Shown: positions 2,437 to 24,101 of the stretch, in pieces
How the letters are laid out: the number at the start of each line of letters is the position of its first letter
Position numbering within the stretch: position 1 is the first letter of the stretch
Virus record (IMG/VR): IMGVR_UViG_3300027754_002810
Span: 1 to 24,101 of that record
Direction: 5' to 3' (one strand)
From: a virus
Length of the DNA stretch: 24,101 nucleotides
The notes under the pieces: generated by a model
What the model was told of the DNA's origin: nothing
Seen by the model: only the letters and a program-made list of their open reading frames with translations
The model's database searches: none
Made by a program: the position numbers and the translations under genes

Positions 2437-2743
2437 CCATACGGGTTTTAGTCTCTTGGACTAGGCGACGGAACTCGTCACGATCTTTGTTCTCCAGATT
2501 AATTTCTTCTACAATCGACCCAAGTTTTACAACAAAGTCGTGCAAGAAAATAACCGGCTGCTTTTCTCTAGAAACAAATCGGTCTATAGCCGCCTTGCAA
2601 GTTTCCTCCCCACCCTTGCTGGTAAAGAAATTAACTATTCGCTTGGCATTGGACTCGTCTTTGTCAGTCTGAAAGTATATTTTCTGAGATTTCTCTACGG
2701 AGGTTTCGAAGTACGATATTAGGATTTCTCCAGTTAGAGTCAT
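2420..2743 (-). CDS. Hypothetical protein directly upstream of the helicase
   Basis: I do not recognise this 107-residue charged protein. It has no membrane segment and no signal peptide. The first 28 residues (MTLTGEILISYFETSV...) look mixed alpha/beta. The remainder is largely helical, with a charged C-terminal third (EEINLENKDRDEFRRLVQE). The ATG at 2743 is the only reasonable start and is preceded by AAGGA about 12 nt upstream. It overlaps the end of the WhiB gene by 80 nt in another frame and runs into the helicase with a 17-nt overlap. Its position right before a DnaB-like helicase is where phages often keep a helicase loader or accessory protein, but that is inference from context only. 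Confidence 0.75.
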   Translation of the reverse strand: MTLTGEILISYFETSVEKSQKIYFQTDKDESNAKRIVNFFTSKGGEETCKAAIDRFVSREKQPVIFLHDFVVKLGSIVEEINLENKDRDEFRRLVQETKTRMDGDSN

Positions 2744-2975
2744 TTACATCACTTATCCTTCGCCATGAGGCAATCAGTCTATCATATTGGGAGTACCCCC
2801 CAGCAACACACGATATATCAAAGTATTGCTCAAGGCAAGGAACTCTGACAGGGCAGCGGGCACAAATGGCTTTAGCTTTTATGACATCAGATGATTCATA
2901 TGATATGAATAACTTATGACTTTCATCTATGCAAGCGGACTGCGCCATCCACTTTACGTTACTTAGCAGACCCAC
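2664..2975 (-). CDS. WhiB-family iron-sulfur transcription regulator
   Basis: WhiB proteins bind a [4Fe-4S] cluster through four cysteines and act with the housekeeping sigma factor in actinobacteria. Here the four ligands are C15, C38, C41 and C47, with the diagnostic spacing CARCPVRVPC (C-x2-C-x5-C). The following turn reads CVAGGYS, where cellular WhiBs usually have G-V/I-W-G-G, so the tryptophan is replaced by alanine. The tail DRLIASWRR is the basic DNA-contacting end. The GTG at 2975 has a GGGG purine run 9 nt upstream (2985-2988) and keeps the usual W before the first Cys. ATG at 2948 is an alternative. The final 26 or so residues overlap the next gene. Mycobacteriophage TM4 encodes a WhiB that interferes with the host regulator, so a host-takeover role is plausible here. 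Confidence 0.9.
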   Translation of the reverse strand: MGLLSNVKWMAQSACIDESHKLFISYESSDVIKAKAICARCPVRVPCLEQYFDISCVAGGYSQYDRLIASWRRISDVNDSNWRNPNIVLRNLRREISENILSD

Positions 2976-3171
2976 TAGATAGTTCCCCGTCTAGCTCTGC
3001 AAGTCTACGTTCGACCTCAGACTCTACTTTAACCCACGCAGCAGACCACTCGTCATCAGACATTACGTCGTCAGAGTCTACAGTGATTCCTGCGTCAATA
3101 CGCAGAGATTGATAGTTGCCTAGGTTTCTAGTCAACCCGACTGTTACATTGATAGTGCCTTTTTTGCTCAT
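2959..3171 (-). CDS. Small conserved-looking phage protein, function unknown
   Basis: A 70-residue soluble protein begins MSKKGTINVTVGLTRNLGNY, with a beta-rich first half (VTVGLTRNLGNYQSLRIDAGI) and a helical acidic second half (EWSAAWVKVESEVERRLAEL). The pattern 'GLT-N-GNY-S-RID-GI' is familiar to me from small proteins in actinophage and other phage genomes, but I know no assigned function. The ATG overlaps the methyltransferase stop as ATGA and has a strong ribosome-binding site, AGGAG, 5 nt upstream, so it is probably well expressed. It overlaps the WhiB GTG start by 17 nt, which couples the two genes. Confidence 0.8.
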   Translation of the reverse strand: MSKKGTINVTVGLTRNLGNYQSLRIDAGITVDSDDVMSDDEWSAAWVKVESEVERRLAELDGELSSGSAK

Positions 3172-3917
3172 TTTTTCTCCTGTGTTAGTTTGTCTTTTTG
3201 GATTTGGTCAAAAGCTTTAGCGCAATACTCAGCGCTAATCTCCGAGCCTATGTAACTCCTGCCTAGCATAGCACATGCTCTTGCAGTTGTGCCACTTCCC
3301 ATAAACGGGTCGTAAACAATATCTCCTGGATTAGACCAAGACCGAATGTGATCGGAGGCTAACAGGAGAGGAAAGGGCGCTGGATGTTTTACCCCATTAA
3401 AACTAGTAGTATATTTCCAGATATTGTTTCGAGGGGAGAAATCTGGAACTGGGTTCTTTAAGATTCCTGAAAAGTCTTTATGTCCAGCCCACTTGTTTGG
3501 CTTATCCACAATTAAGTTAATAGAGCGAGGTCGTCCTTTAGAAAAAACGAACATATATTCGAATATCTGAGAATATCTAACGCTCTTGACATTCGATGGG
3601 TACGTTGAACTATTTTTTTCATATATCATCGTATCGTGCAGATGAAATCCGCACTCCATGAACTTTAGAGCCTGTCGAAAGCTAGACCCGGTTTCGGAGC
3701 CTTTGATGGTGGCATCGCCTACTACCCATACAACCACACCACCATCATTGACGACTCTATAAAGTTCTTCAATTATTAAGTCAGAGTTAAATTCATAACC
3801 ATTGTACTCACGCAAATTATCATACGGAGGACTTGTTACAACCAAGTCAATATATTCATTATCCATATTTGCCATTGTGTCTAGGCAGTTTTCATTATAG
3901 ATACAATCTAAAATCAT
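3168..3917 (-). CDS. DNA methyltransferase, beta-class (N4-cytosine or N6-adenine)
   Basis: This is a 249-residue S-adenosylmethionine-dependent DNA amino-methyltransferase. Catalytic motif IV is TSPPY near residue 30. The cofactor-binding motif I is DPFMGSGTTARA near residue 202. The order IV then I, with the target-recognition segment between them, defines the beta class. TSPPY occurs in both m4C and m6A enzymes, so the modified base cannot be read from sequence. NDGGVVVWVVGD near residue 58 is another conserved core strand. No restriction endonuclease gene is adjacent, so it looks like an orphan enzyme protecting phage DNA or altering regulation. The start ATG at 3917 directly abuts the MerR-like stop codon, and the stop overlaps the next gene as ATGA. 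Confidence 0.92.
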   Translation of the reverse strand: MILDCIYNENCLDTMANMDNEYIDLVVTSPPYDNLREYNGYEFNSDLIIEELYRVVNDGGVVVWVVGDATIKGSETGSSFRQALKFMECGFHLHDTMIYEKNSSTYPSNVKSVRYSQIFEYMFVFSKGRPRSINLIVDKPNKWAGHKDFSGILKNPVPDFSPRNNIWKYTTSFNGVKHPAPFPLLLASDHIRSWSNPGDIVYDPFMGSGTTARACAMLGRSYIGSEISAEYCAKAFDQIQKDKLTQEKK

Positions 3918-6190: not shown

Positions 6191-6622
6191 TTATTCAACA
6201 TCCTTTTTTTTAAACTTGCCCGATGGGTCCCTCTTTGGAGAACCCTCTTTTTTTCTTTTTTCTCGACTTTTGGCTCTTTGAGATGCCTTGCGCTCTAATG
6301 ATAGCACCTTTCCCTCTCCATGTAAAGAGGAATGCTCACTTCTATCAGTTAAAAAAAGGTTCTCTATGCGATTATCCATTTTAACTTCATTAACGTGATG
6401 AACAGACTCCCAAGGTTCCAGATATCTGCCAAAAAATTGTTCCAACACAAGACGATGCTCATATATATATCCATGATTTTCATAAGGATGGTCTGGGCGC
6501 AGTACTCGGATATATCCTTTTTCATCGGCGTACTTGCCACCCGTAAAGTTTGGATTATTTGCACCGGCTATAGAGCTTGATGCCCACTTAATGTCTTTTC
6601 TTTGAGATATAAGACCAGCCAT
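6191..6622 (-). CDS. HNH endonuclease, probably free-standing homing type
   Basis: This 143-residue protein has an HNH nuclease core at about residues 55-100. EHRLVLEQFFGRYLEPWE leads into VHHVNEVKMDNRIENLFL, where the HH pair and the N of NRIENL are the catalytic and metal-site residues of the HNH_3 type seen in phage homing enzymes. An N-terminal segment (NPNFTGGKYADEKGYIRV) is typical of the same family. The C-terminal 45 residues are lysine/arginine-rich and probably disordered or DNA-binding. It starts right after the last fibre gene and ends 7 nt before the metallophosphoesterase. No intron is evident around it, so a free-standing selfish endonuclease is more likely than a packaging HNH protein. 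Confidence 0.88.
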   Translation of the reverse strand: MAGLISQRKDIKWASSSIAGANNPNFTGGKYADEKGYIRVLRPDHPYENHGYIYEHRLVLEQFFGRYLEPWESVHHVNEVKMDNRIENLFLTDRSEHSSLHGEGKVLSLERKASQRAKSREKRKKEGSPKRDPSGKFKKKDVE

Positions 6623-15931: not shown

Positions 15932-16324
15932 TTACTGTTCTTTCAATTCTAAGCTAACCTCATAAAAGATTGCATTAGATAGATAATCCCTGCGAATAAT
16001 GTCTTCACTATAACTTTCTATCCAGACATTATAGGTTTGAGTTGTGCCTATCGGCGCACGAACAACTAGCGCAAGAACTGCCTGAGTATCAGATAATAAC
16101 TTTAAAGTGTTGCGAGCTTCTTTCTTATCATATGTCTGAGTAGATAGGCTAGGAAGCTGAGTCCATTTAAGGCTGAAAGAATATTTAACTGCCTTAAAAT
16201 ATTTCTTTGTAAGCCCGCTGGCAAGTTCAACAGGAATTGAGCGCTCATCTCTCGCAGACGAGAAAGTGCGGCCCTGATCGGTAAGTTCATAGCCACCAAG
16301 ACTAATTAGATTAGGCAATGCCAT
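15932..16324 (-). CDS. Small tail-tip protein (distal-tail-like position)
   Basis: This is a 130-residue soluble, beta-rich protein between tape measure and hub, the slot that distal tail proteins usually occupy. It is shorter than a typical Dit. The visible strands include YFKAVKYSFSLKWTQLP, AVLALVVRAP, YNVWIESYSEDI and the terminal AIFYEVSLELKEQ. This resembles a single beta-sandwich that could form a ring at the tail end. The ATG overlaps the tape measure stop as TAATG, which favours coupled expression. There is no enzymatic motif. The tail role is inferred from position and fold-like pattern, and I do not recognise a specific family. Confidence 0.7.
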   Translation of the reverse strand: MALPNLISLGGYELTDQGRTFSSARDERSIPVELASGLTKKYFKAVKYSFSLKWTQLPSLSTQTYDKKEARNTLKLLSDTQAVLALVVRAPIGTTQTYNVWIESYSEDIIRRDYLSNAIFYEVSLELKEQ

Positions 16325-19300
16325 TAGATTCTACCGCTCCTTTGAGAATTATCTTGGTAAGACGTTACTTTCCTATTAATTGTACCATAAGCCTGCTGAT
16401 TTTTTGGTGCAACTTTGACACCATATTCTTTCATCATTGACTCAAACCAGGCAGGCTCCCCAATGAAATTATCGACATAGATATTAGTTGCCGAAGCTTG
16501 CGGGGCTGATGGAGCAGAGTTATTAGTTATATTAACTGACATTCCAGAATAATCAGATGGAGCAGTCTTGGCAGAGTTGAAACTCTTTACAAATTCAGAC
16601 ATACCCTGAGGAAGAGGAATAACTGCTTCATCATATCGACCCTCGCCAATTTGAGCAAGCATTCCACCCATCTGACGCTTAACAAGACCTCCAGAAGCCA
16701 TCTTGAATGGAGCAATGTTATTAATTATTTGCTCAATTGGCCCATGATGGTCATTTGCTCCACCTTGTTCATCGGTCCAACCGTTTACAGCATCAGCCCA
16801 TTTTCCTACTTTTTTCCAGTTTTCCCATAAACCTGCAAATTGGCGATTAAAGGCAGAGAATATATTTGCATTTACATCGAGTCCATTGCCAAGAACATCG
16901 TTAATAATAGACTCAAAGCCACTCTTGAGGCCGCCCTGATTTTGCATGTCCCATGAAATAAGAAGGGTAACAGTTCTACGAATGCGGTTATAAGAATCCA
17001 GCAAGTCGTTTACGGCGTTCTTGAAATTAAGCTTGCTCGAAGGGGACTCAATCCCCATAGCGATACCATCAACAAAAGGCTTGCCAATCTCATCGGCAGC
17101 AACCCTAGATGGTGACTCAATCTTTAGAGATTTTTTACCATGATCTAACATCTCACTAGTTAAATCACCAACAGCTTTTTTAGGCTTTCCCTTATTTTCC
17201 TTAACACCATCTTCTACGCCATCAGCATATCCTTTTCCAACTTTTTTTCCATGCTTGTTGGCTTTGTCCGTATTTTTCTTTTCATCACCGAGAACCTCCT
17301 TGGTGCCCTTTGTTTTATCGGACTCAGCGGCCCCAGTGGTAGATTCTTTTTCCTCTTTTGCTGGTTTAGATTTGACAATTTGACCTTTATCGTCAATCCA
17401 AAATTTATATTTGTTTCCAGCCAGATCGTCGTATATACCATCATACTCAGAATCACCGGCTTTCCAGTTTTTACGCATTTTTACAACTGCCTCACCTACA
17501 TTGGCTTTAATCCACTTCAGGTTTTTATTTAGCGCATCTGTACCGGATTTCGTCAGATTCCTCTTGTCGCGACCCATATTTTTAAAACCTTTTCCAGTTA
17601 CAATGCCATCACTGTCTGTTATCGGAGTAGCTCCTTCATCTACAACTACATTGCCCTTTTTGTCAAAATGAGTTCCAGCAATACCGCCAGCGCCAGTTTT
17701 TGGCAGCACTGTTTTAGCTATAAATTCTTTTAAACCGTTATTGCCTGTGAATCCATTGTTTTTTTGCCATTTTCTAAATTTATTTAAATCTTTAACATCT
17801 TGAGCAGACTGAAAATTCCCACGAAAAAGTCTATGATATTTAGATAATTCATCTTCCATAATTGCTCTACCATAGATAGAAGTATTAGCTATTTTTGTCA
17901 CCAGGTCCGCACCAGCTTTAGCATTTGATGTCTTTACAGATTCGACTTTTTGCTCAGGAGTCTGGAACTCACGGAGTCCCGCTTCATTAAAGCCTAGCGC
18001 GCCAGGAGAACTGACATTTTTTTTACGATTGGCAACTCTTCCACTAAACATATCAAATAATTTTTGCTCTTTCAAGTATGCAACAAATTGCTTATCTTTT
18101 AATAAGGTTTTCCAAACATCTGGATTATAGTCAGCTTTATATAGAAAATCTAACATCTGTCCAAACTTTGGAATGTTAGATTTTCTATATAGATATTTCC
18201 CACCAGCTTGTGCCCATTTTCCATCACTTACGGTTACTGCCTTTGGTACCTTATCCCCGCTAGCTGGATCTTTGGGCGTGCTATCTGGGTTTGTATCTCC
18301 AGTATCTGTATTGTCTTCAGGAGTAGAATCAGGGTTTAGAGAACTTTCATCAATGCCAGACTTAGCGCTATCGGCCATAGACTTAACAATATTCTTAATG
18401 TCAATCTCAGCAAGTTTAGATATCCAAGAATATATTCCAGTATAAGCCCATTCACCGCTCCAGAAAGACTCGTTGTTCATATCAACCTTAACTTGAGCAA
18501 TAGCAAGTTTAAACATATCAAGGCCATTAGTCCAGGCACCAGCAATAAGTGGCATTCCATAGTTAGTTAAAGTAGCATTAATCTGATCCATCATAGCAAC
18601 CCACTCCGCATCATTTTTGGGAGTGTACTTGGTGATAAGATCTATCTGCTCTTTAAGCGCTTTCTCTTGTATCGCCTTTAAGTCTTCAGCCGCTTTTTTG
18701 GCATCTGCAATTTTCTGTCTCTGCAAGTCGCGAGTTGCCTTAAGAAGCACTCCCCCACGCGCCTTGTCAATATCAGTAATTGCCTTCACATTGCCCTTAT
18801 CATTTTCAGCAAAAGTTAAGTCTAAGTTTCTAGCATCATCAATACGGCCCTCATAAATCGCAAGGCTTCTATCTCTACGATAATTTTCCTGGTCTAAAGA
18901 ACGCTTATTCAGCGCTTCACGACGGCTCTGAACGTACTCCTGAGTAGCAAGAAGTTCTGCTTCTTTTTTCTCAACCTCGTCCATTGCTTTAATCTGGTCA
19001 TCAAAGACTTGAAGTCGTTTCTTCCAAACTTCATCAAACTCTTTACTAATCATATCTTTTAATGAAGAAATAAAGTCATTGAGTTTTGCCTGAAGCGCCG
19101 ACAAAAAATTATCATAAGGATTCTTACCGCCAGAACCAGAACTACTATCCAACGAATCTTTAGGTTTAGGAACTAAGACCTCAGATGGTCTAATTTCTTT
19201 TGTTTTATTTACAAAAGTAGTTTTTACTTCAACGGGCTTTCTCTTAGTTAATTTATCTAAACCTGCTCTAATGCTCTTAGTAATATCAAGTTTATCCGCA

Positions 19301-22300
19301 AAATCATTTACTTGCTTTTGAATTCCCTTGGCACCCAAAAGACCCGCAAGCCAACCGACACCTTTTGCTATCACCTTTACAATGGACTCAAATGACTTAG
19401 TAAAAGGTTGCATCAGATCGACCATAAACATTATTACGCTAGCAAAAGCCCTGCCTAGATATCCTAATGCTTCTTTCCAGTCTCCGTGAAATACTGCCAT
19501 TAAAGCTTGGAAGATATTGATAATTACTTTAAAAGCATCAGCGATAGGATCGAACGCCATCTTGAGGCCAGGAGCTAATTTGGTTATAATCCAAGCAAAT
19601 GCTTTAATAACCCAAGCAATAGCAGAAGCCACCCCGCCAATAATCTGACCGATACCCTCCCATACGCTAGCAGTCTTCTTGCCACCCTCGGCGCCTGCGC
19701 TAACAGTCTTAAAACTATCTTTAAATACCCCGACAATTACCCCAACAGCGTCACCAACAGCGCTAAAAGCTTTCTTAATGCTATTAATTCCGCCGGACAT
19801 TCCCTTGGAAATCTCTTTCCAATGCTTGGCTAAAGTAACTACAATAGCAATCACAGCAGCAATAGCGGCAATAATAAGAGCAATAGGACCTAGCATGGAT
19901 GCAAACCCAGCCCCTCCAGCCACTACGCCTCCCTCAGCAGCCGCAACGCCAGCCCCAGCCGCTCCAGCCCCCCCCGCACCAGCCGCAGCCGCTCCAGCCC
20001 CAAGCCCAGGAATAAGTCCCTTGCCTACTTTAAGAACCTTCGATCCAACGCCTTTAAGCAGCCCACCAGTTCTTCCAAGAAGACCTACTTTAGCAATAGG
20101 AGCGACGGCTGTAGAATTGGCTGCCGCTTGCACCCCAGCGGCCTCAACAAGTAATGCTATTTCTGCCGCTAAAGTCTCATTATATAGTAGCGTAGATGCA
20201 GCAAGGGCATCCGTTGCGCTAACGCCCTTCGCCAATTCCCCGTTGTACAATACCATAGCCTCAGTTAGAGCATTTTTTTCAGCCTCAGCTAAACCATCCG
20301 CAACAACTTGCAGGTCAGTTGCATCAGCATTAGCAAGCCTTGCAACCGTATCCGCAGCCATCTGATCTGTATTTATTGCTTGCCCAAGAAAAAGTTGCTC
20401 TTTCATCAATGCCAAATCTTCAGTGCTAACAGCAAGAGAATTAGTGGCGTCGGCCTCTACAAGAGTTGCCGTAGTCACTCTGGCTGATGCATCTAATACG
20501 TTAGCATCGTGAGCTGACCTCAGGCCAGATGCAATATTCTCTGCATCAATAGAATCAGTTTTTGCAATATTTGCCGCAGTCTGAGCATCTGTGCTTGCAA
20601 CTCGCAAGTCATCAATAACTATACCTTTCTCATTAACGGCGTTCTGAGCATTCGTGGCAGCAGTTAGAGTAGATGTTTCTTTTCTTTCGGCTGCCTTGGC
20701 TATAGTTACCTCTTCAGACGCAGCAATAGATGCATTCTTAGAAACGAGACTCGCATTCTCAGCAGCAGCATCTGCATTAATAGATGCGGTTAAAGCATCT
20801 GTTTCTGCCCTTTCAGCCGCTATTGTTTCCGCCTTTAATTTGTTAAGTCTAGTTACGCTGCTTGGGTGCCCCACCATAGTAGGAGAATTTGCTATCTGAG
20901 TCTCAACAATGCTTGCTTGAGCCTTCTCTGCCGCTCTCGCTTGACGCAAACTTTCTTTTGAATGCCTAACTAGGGTTTTGGCTGCTATTTTTTCTTGTAT
21001 TGCCTCAGTTTCTATAGCAGACGCAGCAATTTTGGCATCATTTGCAATTTGCAGATTGGTTCTTGCCGTATCTGCAGCAGAGGCTGCATCTTTGTGCGCT
21101 TTCAATGCATCTGTAGATGCTGTTTGTGCTAATGTATACGATCTTTCCTTAACAGCTAACTGATTGTGTAGTTTAGTCGCAGCAGTTTGAGTCCGAGTAG
21201 CTTCAGCATCAGCAAGTTTAGCGGCTGTTTCCGCATCTTTAACAGGTTGACCGACAACTAAAGCATTTTTATATTCTTTATTGGCTAACGTAAGTTCTTC
21301 TTGAGCAAGGGCTTGCTTTTGCATTAAATCTTCATTTATTGCCTGAAGTGGTGCAACTTTCGCAGCAGCTGCTTCTTGTTCTCTAGTCCATATTTCGGTG
21401 GCAAGAATCTTTGCGGCATTATACTGCAAGAAACTTTCAGCCTCAGCTGCAGTCATAGCCTCAGTTACGCCCATAGCCGCATTAACTACGGACTGGGAAG
21501 TAATCATTTCTTCATCAGCTAGGACAGAACCTTTTTTAATTCCTATGAGGTTGGAAAGTCTTTGAGATAAGCTAGTAGAACTCTTTCCCAGATAGAAGAA
21601 ACTGTCGCCAACCATGCCAACACTTCTAGTCATTCCAGTTAAATTATATTCAGCAACTAGCGCCTCTTTGGTTACCATCTGAAGCCCGGGCAGAACTGAA
21701 GTCATAGCCCTAAATAATACGCCGAAAACGCTGCCTGCGAGTCCACCAAGATATAGCAGAGGTCCAAGCGCAGCCAATCCAACCATCAAGCTGCCTAGAA
21801 ATATTCTAACTCCTGCACTCATTTTTTCAAACTTTTCAAAAACAGATAAAAGAACTTGACCTATCTTGAGCAAAGCAGGGAACATAGATTGACCCAAGCT
21901 TGCTCCAACCATCTTAAAGGTTTCACTCATGATACGCATCTTCGCTTCAGGAGATTTTAGTTTAATTTCAATTTCTCTACCGGACATTTTACGATATTCG
22001 GTAGCCAACTCTTTCATGCCTTTAGTCGAGACGTCTACCATAGCGGAGCTAGCAATAAGAGCTCGACCGAAACCGTTAGTCATATTTCCAGAAGCTAAAA
22101 TTTCAGTACGATATTTTATTAAAACCTGAGCCATATCTTGAAAACTTGACTTGTTAACATCAAGATTCAAATCTTGCATCATTTTTGCCGCTGCGGGCAA
22201 TTTTGTCATCAAAGTAGCGACAGCTTCTCTAATTTGAATATTTCCTTCATTAAGGGAAGCAGCCATTGGCTGGAAAGTTTTAATCTGCCTGCGCTGAACT

Positions 22301-23745
22301 ACCTCAGCAATTACCTTATTAGCCTCAGCCTCATTGTTCTTAGTGCCAGCTGCGCCTCCCGCAACTCCACGAATTCTTAGCTCTTCATAGTCTTGAGATA
22401 TTTTCATTATCTTGGAAAGACCATCACCAGTGTTCTGAATAGCCGCTAAAGCACCTTTTCCAAAGGCTTTATCATAAACTTCCCCAGCTTTTTTAGTTGG
22501 AGCAACAATGCGAGCAAGAACAAAACTCAAACCAGTAGCGGCAGTTTCTAGAGGAAGACCCTTGTCGATAATACCAGTAAGAACTGAAGCTAACTCGGCA
22601 GCATTCAATCCAAACAATTTTGCGGCACCAGCAGCAACAGGCATTGCTGTAGCCAACTGGCTTAAGTTAATAACAGTCTTGTTTTCAATCTGGTTTAACT
22701 GGTCAATGATAAAGTTAGTACCTTTAAGTTGATCGTTGAAAGTTTTAATTGCAGGGTTGGATGCAACGAACACTTTCATAGTGTTGCGATAGAAATCTGT
22801 AGCAGTCCTAAGGCCAACGTCACCTAGAGCAGCAACATACTGAATGTTCTTACCTAGACGAATGGCCTCAGAACTAACTCCACCAATGCCATAACCCATA
22901 GACACAAGGTCACCAGTTAGAGTAGCTGCAGCTTTTTGGCTTGTACCAAAAGTCCTAACCTGGTCTGCGATACCCTTTTCAATATATCCATGAAATTTCT
23001 TGAAAAGATCTCTGCCTCCAACCTTTTCAATTCTAGTCATTTCCTTGTTTACTTGCAAGAACATACTAGTTGCGGCTTTAATGCCCATCAACAAAGGAAT
23101 AGTAAAACCAGTCATCATCTGACGTCCAGTCCACTGCATATTCTTACCCATAGAAGTGATTTGCATTCCTACACCAGAAAGGGTATTCCTGAGAGCCCCC
23201 CACTTCATCGAAGCCATCTCGCCAGAAGTTAAAGCCTGCCTGAATGTAGCCTGAGTTCCGGCTGCAATCTGACCCATGTTGGTGGAATCGATTCTTCCGA
23301 TTGGCATGATAGAACCACCAGCAGGACCATTCATTGGCATACGAGCCTGCGTTGCGCCAGCATTTATCTGACTGCGATAAGTTGCGGCAAGATTATTCAG
23401 GTAACGACTTTGATTAGCAACCCCTGCCATTCCAGGGGAAGCATTTCTACCAAAAGCCTGTGCCCCCATACTGCGAGACATTTGTGTATAAGCAGCAGCC
23501 TGCTGTCTAAGCATTGCAGTGGTAGTTCTAGAAGCTGCCTGTTGCGCACTCTGACCTGTAACTCCAGCTGCACTTGCTGCAGCGGCTGCTTCTCCAAGAG
23601 AAGTAAAAGACGTTGCGGCAAGAGTAGCCATAGCACTCATCTGCTTCGCTACATTAGTGAATGTTTGACCAAAAGACTGAACGCCTTTAGTCATGGCAGT
23701 AAGTTGACTTATATTTGCTTGGATACCAACATAAATATTTGCCAT
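16324..23745 (-). CDS. Tape measure protein
   Basis: A 2473-residue protein that would set tail length and be threaded out during DNA ejection. The TP901-type core lies at about residues 210-560 (FGTSQKAAATLTGDLVSMGYG and SEAIRLGKNIQYVAALG). Apolar segments follow at about 625-690. A very alanine-rich coiled coil spans about 765-1215. A Gly/Ala hinge (1242-1275) precedes a strong membrane-like helix (GPIALIIAAIAAVIAIVVTL, about 1286-1305). A charged coiled coil occupies 1565-1700, and a Pro/Asp/Thr linker (about 1798-1832) leads into an unrecognised domain (1835-2100). SPSRVAADEIGKPFVDGI and MASGGLV...GEGRYDEAVIPLPQG near the end are tape-measure hallmarks. At roughly 0.15 nm per residue the tail would approach 370 nm, unless the protein is cleaved or partly folded. 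Confidence 0.95.
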   Translation of the reverse strand: MANIYVGIQANISQLTAMTKGVQSFGQTFTNVAKQMSAMATLAATSFTSLGEAAAAASAAGVTGQSAQQAASRTTTAMLRQQAAAYTQMSRSMGAQAFGRNASPGMAGVANQSRYLNNLAATYRSQINAGATQARMPMNGPAGGSIMPIGRIDSTNMGQIAAGTQATFRQALTSGEMASMKWGALRNTLSGVGMQITSMGKNMQWTGRQMMTGFTIPLLMGIKAATSMFLQVNKEMTRIEKVGGRDLFKKFHGYIEKGIADQVRTFGTSQKAAATLTGDLVSMGYGIGGVSSEAIRLGKNIQYVAALGDVGLRTATDFYRNTMKVFVASNPAIKTFNDQLKGTNFIIDQLNQIENKTVINLSQLATAMPVAAGAAKLFGLNAAELASVLTGIIDKGLPLETAATGLSFVLARIVAPTKKAGEVYDKAFGKGALAAIQNTGDGLSKIMKISQDYEELRIRGVAGGAAGTKNNEAEANKVIAEVVQRRQIKTFQPMAASLNEGNIQIREAVATLMTKLPAAAKMMQDLNLDVNKSSFQDMAQVLIKYRTEILASGNMTNGFGRALIASSAMVDVSTKGMKELATEYRKMSGREIEIKLKSPEAKMRIMSETFKMVGASLGQSMFPALLKIGQVLLSVFEKFEKMSAGVRIFLGSLMVGLAALGPLLYLGGLAGSVFGVLFRAMTSVLPGLQMVTKEALVAEYNLTGMTRSVGMVGDSFFYLGKSSTSLSQRLSNLIGIKKGSVLADEEMITSQSVVNAAMGVTEAMTAAEAESFLQYNAAKILATEIWTREQEAAAAKVAPLQAINEDLMQKQALAQEELTLANKEYKNALVVGQPVKDAETAAKLADAEATRTQTAATKLHNQLAVKERSYTLAQTASTDALKAHKDAASAADTARTNLQIANDAKIAASAIETEAIQEKIAAKTLVRHSKESLRQARAAEKAQASIVETQIANSPTMVGHPSSVTRLNKLKAETIAAERAETDALTASINADAAAENASLVSKNASIAASEEVTIAKAAERKETSTLTAATNAQNAVNEKGIVIDDLRVASTDAQTAANIAKTDSIDAENIASGLRSAHDANVLDASARVTTATLVEADATNSLAVSTEDLALMKEQLFLGQAINTDQMAADTVARLANADATDLQVVADGLAEAEKNALTEAMVLYNGELAKGVSATDALAASTLLYNETLAAEIALLVEAAGVQAAANSTAVAPIAKVGLLGRTGGLLKGVGSKVLKVGKGLIPGLGAGAAAAGAGGAGAAGAGVAAAEGGVVAGGAGFASMLGPIALIIAAIAAVIAIVVTLAKHWKEISKGMSGGINSIKKAFSAVGDAVGVIVGVFKDSFKTVSAGAEGGKKTASVWEGIGQIIGGVASAIAWVIKAFAWIITKLAPGLKMAFDPIADAFKVIINIFQALMAVFHGDWKEALGYLGRAFASVIMFMVDLMQPFTKSFESIVKVIAKGVGWLAGLLGAKGIQKQVNDFADKLDITKSIRAGLDKLTKRKPVEVKTTFVNKTKEIRPSEVLVPKPKDSLDSSSGSGGKNPYDNFLSALQAKLNDFISSLKDMISKEFDEVWKKRLQVFDDQIKAMDEVEKKEAELLATQEYVQSRREALNKRSLDQENYRRDRSLAIYEGRIDDARNLDLTFAENDKGNVKAITDIDKARGGVLLKATRDLQRQKIADAKKAAEDLKAIQEKALKEQIDLITKYTPKNDAEWVAMMDQINATLTNYGMPLIAGAWTNGLDMFKLAIAQVKVDMNNESFWSGEWAYTGIYSWISKLAEIDIKNIVKSMADSAKSGIDESSLNPDSTPEDNTDTGDTNPDSTPKDPASGDKVPKAVTVSDGKWAQAGGKYLYRKSNIPKFGQMLDFLYKADYNPDVWKTLLKDKQFVAYLKEQKLFDMFSGRVANRKKNVSSPGALGFNEAGLREFQTPEQKVESVKTSNAKAGADLVTKIANTSIYGRAIMEDELSKYHRLFRGNFQSAQDVKDLNKFRKWQKNNGFTGNNGLKEFIAKTVLPKTGAGGIAGTHFDKKGNVVVDEGATPITDSDGIVTGKGFKNMGRDKRNLTKSGTDALNKNLKWIKANVGEAVVKMRKNWKAGDSEYDGIYDDLAGNKYKFWIDDKGQIVKSKPAKEEKESTTGAAESDKTKGTKEVLGDEKKNTDKANKHGKKVGKGYADGVEDGVKENKGKPKKAVGDLTSEMLDHGKKSLKIESPSRVAADEIGKPFVDGIAMGIESPSSKLNFKNAVNDLLDSYNRIRRTVTLLISWDMQNQGGLKSGFESIINDVLGNGLDVNANIFSAFNRQFAGLWENWKKVGKWADAVNGWTDEQGGANDHHGPIEQIINNIAPFKMASGGLVKRQMGGMLAQIGEGRYDEAVIPLPQGMSEFVKSFNSAKTAPSDYSGMSVNITNNSAPSAPQASATNIYVDNFIGEPAWFESMMKEYGVKVAPKNQQAYGTINRKVTSYQDNSQRSGRI
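19956..20001. repeat. Direct repeat and C8/G8 tract inside the tape measure gene
   Basis: The 16-bp unit CAGCCGCTCCAGCCCC occurs at 19956-19971 and again at 19986-20001, a 30-bp period. It encodes the Gly/Ala hinge of the tape measure protein. A run of eight C (G on the coding strand) spans 19968-19975. The stretch is a GC-rich island in an otherwise AT-leaning gene and probably grew by slippage or unequal exchange. Confidence 0.7.
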
Positions 23746-23746
23746 A

Positions 23747-24101
23747 TTAATCTATTGTCTCATATCCCATATTAATAGGCAAGAAACCAAGATCATTTGA
23801 GCTATTAATATCGTACCCGCTGGTATCGAGACTAGAATCAGAGTCATCAGACATATCAGCTCCCATAGCGGCAGCGACAGTCTTCATAAGTCTATTTTGT
23901 CTCTCGATAGCGCTCGCATATAACTCCATCAACTCTTCCATGGTTAGACAATCTTCTAAGTCCATGAAATTCTTCCAAGCGCCGCACTCGGAGAATACTT
24001 CTTTTTCGTAGGTAAGGAGGGGGAGGTCATCGAAGTGAATTCCTTCACCAGATGACGACCCCCCCTCCGTTACTCGTTTGGGTCTACGCCCATAGCGGCG
24101 T
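23747..24101 (-). CDS. Tail assembly chaperone T-frame (made as a -1 frameshift extension)
   Basis: An open frame enters from the right edge and ends at 23747, two nt before the tape measure start. It is the -1 frame relative to the upstream chaperone gene. If ribosomes slip at 24076-24082, the extension adds 109 residues, beginning RVTEGGSSSGEGIHFDDLP. Its middle is helical (LTMEELMELYASAIERQNRL) and its tail acidic and Ser/Asp-rich. This is the standard layout of the G/GT tail assembly chaperones, which coat the tape measure during tail assembly. The ATG at 23965 would give a 72-residue stand-alone product, but it has no ribosome-binding site. The frame upstream of the slip site (RRYGRRPK) is open only by chance of overlap. 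Confidence 0.8.
   Translation of the reverse strand, partial: RRYGRRPKRVTEGGSSSGEGIHFDDLPLLTYEKEVFSECGAWKNFMDLEDCLTMEELMELYASAIERQNRLMKTVAAAMGADMSDDSDSSLDTSGYDINSSNDLGFLPINMGYETID
24016..24068 (-). promoter_or_regulatory. Stimulatory RNA hairpin downstream of the slip site
   Basis: On the coding strand GGAGGGGGGG (24059-24068) pairs with CCTCCCCCTCC-type sequence (24016-24025) in ten base pairs, one of them G-U. After a 2-nt bulge, GTCATC pairs with GATGAC. A small internal loop follows, and then GTGAA pairs with TTCAC, closed by a GGAA tetraloop. The 7-nt spacer from the heptamer matches the usual 5-9 nt. Pairing was done by eye. Confidence 0.78.
24070..24101 (-). CDS. 3' end of tail assembly chaperone G (partial)
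   Basis: Only the last nine codons are in the window: AAMGVDPNE, then TAA at 24070-24072. The gene starts beyond the right edge. The assignment rests on three points: it lies just before the tape measure gene, it overlaps a long -1 frame, and its last codons contain a slippery heptamer one codon before the stop. No other frame from the edge fits, because the remaining frame meets a TAG at 24084-24086. Confidence 0.7.
   Translation of the reverse strand, partial: AAMGVDPNE
24076..24082 (-). promoter_or_regulatory. -1 programmed frameshift slippery heptamer CCCAAAC
   Basis: On the coding strand the G frame reads GAC CCA AAC GAG TAA. The heptamer C-CCA-AAC fits X-XXY-YYZ in the zero frame, so both tRNAs can re-pair one base back on CCC and AAA. 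Slippage bypasses the TAA and enters the T frame as CGA GTA ACG. The site lies one codon before the stop, 7 nt before a strong hairpin, and just ahead of the tape measure gene, where such sites are conserved in long-tailed phages. Confidence 0.82.

Follow-up and report, generated by a model that had tools for sequence, protein, structure and literature searches.

The window that we have analyzed is a 24,101-base fragment of a virus, whose right edge cuts a gene, referred to here as G. On the minus strand this edge reads GCC GCT ATG GGC GTA GAC CCA AAC GAG TAA in the zero frame, and it is followed by a second frame, T, and by the gene for the tape measure protein. The features present at this locus, in the order in which they are read, are as follows.

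24070–24099, minus strand: 3′ end of gene G in the zero frame, encoding ..AAMGVDPNE and the stop; read directly, the remainder of this 100 amino acid (aa) gene lying past the window edge.
24076–24082, minus strand: slippery heptamer C_CCA_AAC, in the G frame and one codon before TAA; read directly.
24070–24072, minus strand: zero-frame stop codon TAA of G, within the spacer; read directly.
24069–24075, minus strand: 7-nt spacer GAGTAAC between heptamer and stem; from sequence and fold.
24016–24068, minus strand: 53-nt hairpin with a GC-rich base, a putative stimulator; from the fold, recoding test, family z and arm swap.
23747–24082, minus strand: T frame (−1), entered after the slip and ending 1 nt before the tape-measure ATG; from the open reading frame, the homologous T domain in relatives and PHROG 10474.
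16324–23745, minus strand: gene for a tape measure protein of 2473 aa, directly 3′ of T; from the open reading frame and several PHROG tape-measure families.

An earlier note on this DNA had described these elements as a frameshift module, and its coordinates and description hold to the base, with all of the parts at the positions that it gave. The zero-frame stop is located 3 nt past the heptamer, and the recoded frame is, as had been claimed, exactly −1 and reaches to just before the tape measure gene, being open through the heptamer to position 23747 whereas the tape-measure open reading frame begins at 23745. A bipartite −1 signal consists of a slippery heptamer, a spacer of usually 5–9 nt and a stimulatory structure (PMC7618472). 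Since a heptamer of the form XXXYYYZ, a 7-nt spacer and a stable 3′ structure (−36.8 kcal/mol) are all present, the arrangement in the window is that of a standard signal of this kind (PMC7618472), and the slippery sequence is in the correct phase near the 3′ end of G. The sequence CCCAAAC by itself is not rare (1 copy observed in the window vs. 2.0 expected), but its combination with the frame and with conservation is beyond chance. A literature search for CCCAAAC together with phage frameshifting returned unrelated papers only.

The complete G gene is found in a 99.98%-identical contig (L006/L002) that runs past the window edge. It encodes a protein of 100 aa that starts with ATG and ends in AAMGVDPNE, so that both the upstream open reading frame with this ending and the G frame of roughly 100–200 residues that had been expected from the window are present. 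The protein encoded 5′ of G matches major tail protein and Ig-domain families, hence the gene order is major tail protein, G, T and tape measure, with G and T, as two frames that overlap or abut, placed between the genes for the major tail protein and the tape measure. A DNA-level search against known phages gave no match and protein searches were therefore used. A search of IMG/VR with a G profile identified 72 loci and 43 related records were examined, in all of which a homologous T domain is present in the −1 frame (it is cut short by the contig end in L047, L060, and L066), indicating that the second frame is coding and conserved. Motifs common to the relatives include PLLKYE (PLLTYE in the window) and GAW. 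The GT fusion gave no match above the curated cut-off in Pfam, and no relative was found when the G profile was searched against bacterial and archaeal genomes.

The G-T cassette, together with the DNA immediately upstream of it, is 90–95% identical to that of three relatives (L007/L008/L009) until about 28 nt into the tape-measure gene, and past window position ~23718 the tape-measure protein is only ~51% identical to theirs. The junction near 23718 looks like the result of recombination, whereby near-identical chaperones would serve quite different tape measures. The tape-measure gene also contains a perfect 19-nt inverted repeat with a 16-nt loop (window positions 18138–18191). Beyond the tail module, the window encodes a DNA methylase (Pfam N6_N4_Mtase; 3168–3917, minus strand) and an HNH endonuclease (6191–6622, minus strand).

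An AlphaFold2 model of the G protein (pLDDT 84) matches the predicted tail assembly chaperone of an uncultured phage with a TM score of 0.88. When solved structures were ranked against this model, YqbN and HK97 gp13 came first with Z scores of only 4.9 and 4.8, a ranking that agrees with kinship but is not proof of it. A Foldseek search of the model against the PDB gave no match at E ≤ 0.001, and a profile search of the sequences of solved structures returned nothing meaningful.

The nearest isolates are Streptomyces phages of the Stanwilliamsviridae, which are ~33–39% identical to the window phage in the aligned regions of G and T; for G, identities of 30–36% were obtained. Their homologues are mostly annotated as tail assembly chaperones, in phage Yaboi as a joined two-piece coding sequence, and G is thus homologous to known tail assembly chaperones. 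The members of this family (viz. Yaboi, Moab, Beuffert, Francob, and Karimac) share with the window homologous G and T proteins, a T frame in −1 and a tape measure gene downstream. The Loccivirinae-type phages (3 records, viz. Moab, Beuffert, and Francob) also carry C_CCA_AAT at the homologous D-P-N, but differ in having the stop 36 nt past the heptamer and no comparable hairpin, whereas the five Boydwoodruffvirinae that were read have CCCGGAA at the D-P-N place. In the records of Moab, Beuffert, and Karimac (L097, L098, and L101) T has a gene entry of its own that begins further downstream, in some cases labelled as a hypothetical protein, although no stop interrupts the −1 frame back to the D-P-N site; the G-T fusion is probably unannotated in these records. 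The window also encodes a WhiB-like transcription factor (2664–2975, minus strand; Pfam Whib, E 1.4e-8), and from this protein and the Streptomyces relatives we infer that the host probably belongs to the Actinomycetota.

Among the 43 related records, C_CCA_AAC or C_CCA_AAU is found at the same place in 40, the codons being GAC-CCA-AA(C/T) in 39 and AAC-CCA-AAC in 1 (L026). The other 3 records, which represent two lineages (L021 and L022, identical around the site, and L033), have GAC-CCT-TCC-TGA instead. In these, C_CCT_TCC (3282–3290 in L021 and 3288–3296 in L033) is followed directly by TGA, T is still in −1 and the hairpin is kept; re-pairing of tRNA-Ser on UUC would require a G-U pair, making this an unusual slip site. 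The stop codon of G is located 0, 3, 6, or 9 nt past the first heptamer in all 43 relatives, mostly at 3 nt, and the 9-nt case (L049) has two tandem in-frame heptamers before the stop (from position 3291: CCCAAACCCAAAC), with the stop 3 nt from the second. The predicted spacer is 4–8 nt across the family, where 4 is a floor set by the fold, in which the first 4 nt after the heptamer were held open. Where an Asp codon provides the first C of the heptamer, this codon is GAC in every case, despite a preference of the G genes for GAT (307 vs. 179), the chance of which is ~3e-10 if the 22 representatives are independent, an optimistic figure given their relatedness.

The segment from 24068 to 24016 folds into a hairpin whose GC-rich base of 8 bp is followed by one bulged base, a middle helix of 7 bp, an internal loop and a 6-bp top with a GGAA loop, in agreement with the three-part structure reported earlier. 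Its predicted energy of −36.8 kcal/mol corresponds to a z of −5.5 against dinucleotide shuffles, 0 of 200 being as good, and the wider segment around it has a z of −5.1. As a control that preserves the T protein, the T segment was recoded 2000 times with synonymous codons at the usage of the tape-measure gene, which gave a mean of −14.9 kcal/mol vs. −37.0 observed (z −6.8; 0/2000 as stable). Tiles across the T and tape-measure genes of the window had a mean z of −0.20 and a minimum of −3.5 in this test. Across the 43 records the mean z was −3.24, with 33 below −2, compared to a mean of −0.68 (8/42 below −2) for the adjacent stretch of the same length; the paired Wilcoxon p of 1.3e-7 for this difference is optimistic, as the records are related. 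A strong hairpin is not universal, since the recoding z is above −1.65 in 8 of the 43 records.

The arms of the stem co-vary. When 3′ arms were exchanged among the 22 representatives, the mean energy was −17.0 with the own arm vs. −14.2 with swapped arms (z −5.2; 0/20,000 permutations as low), and AU-rich L038 pairs best with its own arm. Among the four closest sequences every base of the main helix remains paired and there is a single two-sided change, which is too little variation to decide by, and the apical loop varies. Synonymous recoding and the arm swap together show that the 3′ structure is under selection. The proposals that heptamer and stem are conserved in homologues (40/43 for the heptamer; the family mean z above) and that the stem base is selected are thus borne out, but the GGAA tetraloop is rejected as a selected feature, as it is GGAC in L017/L018 and a larger loop in L020. 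No Rfam family was matched and no tRNA was found in searches of the window.

The frame change could be real and used while the hairpin serves mRNA stability, processing or termination and is not a stimulator. For some tailed phages it is held that frameshifting needs no stimulator (PMC5009743), and the hairpin is weak in the 8 records noted above. However, the spacer is held at 4–8 nt while the sequence of the stem changes, and a terminator is rejected because neither a T run nor a terminator-like site is present; we regard this explanation as improbable. Production of T as a separate protein by re-initiation past the G stop, with GGAGG as a Shine-Dalgarno sequence, is less probable still. A strong GGAGG does occur right after the stop in the window and T has its own gene entry, with a start further downstream, in several public records, but many relatives are without GGAGG and re-initiation would require no conservation of the heptamer and its preceding codon. 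Moreover, the first start in the T frame is the ATG at 23965, which lies 3′ of the conserved PLLTYE and GAW motifs, so that a re-initiated T would lack conserved protein sequence. An assembly or sequencing error within one gene, which could be imagined for metagenomic contigs and a window edge that cuts G, is refuted by the recurrence of the same break at the same place in cultured Streptomyces phages and, across many metagenomes, in ~40 distinct sequence contexts.

Based on the gene order, the homology to annotated chaperones, the conservation of heptamer, stop position, spacer, and stem across diverged relatives and the co-variation of the arms, we conclude with high confidence that the module is a canonical −1 programmed frameshift signal, as first proposed from the window, by which an uncultured tailed phage, probably an actinophage, would produce the tail assembly chaperones G and GT. 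The majority of ribosomes would read G and halt at TAA to give gpG, whereas a minority, paused by the hairpin 7 nt downstream with tRNA-Pro on CCA and tRNA-Asn on AAC, would move back by one base, re-pair with CCC AAA and translate T in the −1 frame; the resulting GT fusion would read ..GVDPN-RVTEGG.. at the junction. By analogy with lambda, from which the roles of gpG and gpGT are known (PMC5009743), gpG would coat the tape measure protein, and the major tail protein would be recruited by gpGT through its T part. The occurrence and efficiency of slippage and the chaperone roles are inferred from sequence. Stimulators of the stem-loop type reportedly interfere with translocation and with the binding of tRNA to the A site (PMC7282821). 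As for the site itself, C_CCA_AAG is listed as highly shift-prone in Escherichia coli and G_GGA_AAC as the site used in the g-t gene of a haloarchaeal virus (Atkins et al.; PMC5009743), and AAC is a less usual A-site slip codon in bacteria than AAG (PMC5009743). This A-site AAC, the 3/43 records that lack a perfect XXXYYYZ heptamer and the 8/43 with a weak hairpin are the points against a frameshift.

The slip mechanism in −1 for tail chaperones has been known since phage lambda, and the module described here is very probably a further member of this class, with a compact layout common to a group of uncultured phages. The G/GT system of lambda and the gp13/gp13-14 system of HK97 share with the window the order of major tail protein, G, T, and tape measure and a T frame in −1, although no sequence homology of the window proteins to those of lambda or HK97 is detectable. 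Lambda also has an X_XXY_YYZ slip site near the end of G, but this is G_GGA_AAG with the stop 15 nt on, whereas the window has C_CCA_AAC with the stop 3 nt on and a strong hairpin. The zero-frame stop of the gag-pro signal of MMTV reportedly also lies within the spacer, and its 3′ structure is said to be a pseudoknot, unlike the simple hairpin predicted here. Such eukaryotic-virus signals serve unrelated genes but resemble the window in a heptamer ending in AAC, a 5–9 nt spacer (PMC7618472) and a 3′ structure. The slip-to-stop distance of 3 nt compares with 15 in lambda, 18 in P2 and published means of 26 nt (SEA-PHAGES) and 36 nt (the set of Xu et al.) (PMC10885494), so that the stop is, as the earlier note held, uncommonly tight relative to other phages, but it is the norm within its own family. 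The tight layout is, on the sequences compared, real and lineage-specific, and differs from the known cases in spacing, without amounting to a new mechanism.

We also consider, as a tentative and rather unlikely proposal, that the stop within the spacer is functional, such that ribosomes past the heptamer would meet the stop when pressed against the hairpin, and termination and hairpin would jointly set the ratio of G to GT. If this is true, relatives with C_CCA_AAC_UGA or C_CCU_UCC_UGA would slip while a stop codon occupies the A site, in a release-factor-sensitive form of tail-chaperone frameshifting. Around its near-constant C_CCA_AAC site, the family provides more than 30 natural variants that differ in stem, spacer, and stop position, a set that is useful for testing how a chaperone ratio depends on stop position and stem strength. 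The signal further suggests that annotation of the G-T fusion is missing from a number of related phage records.
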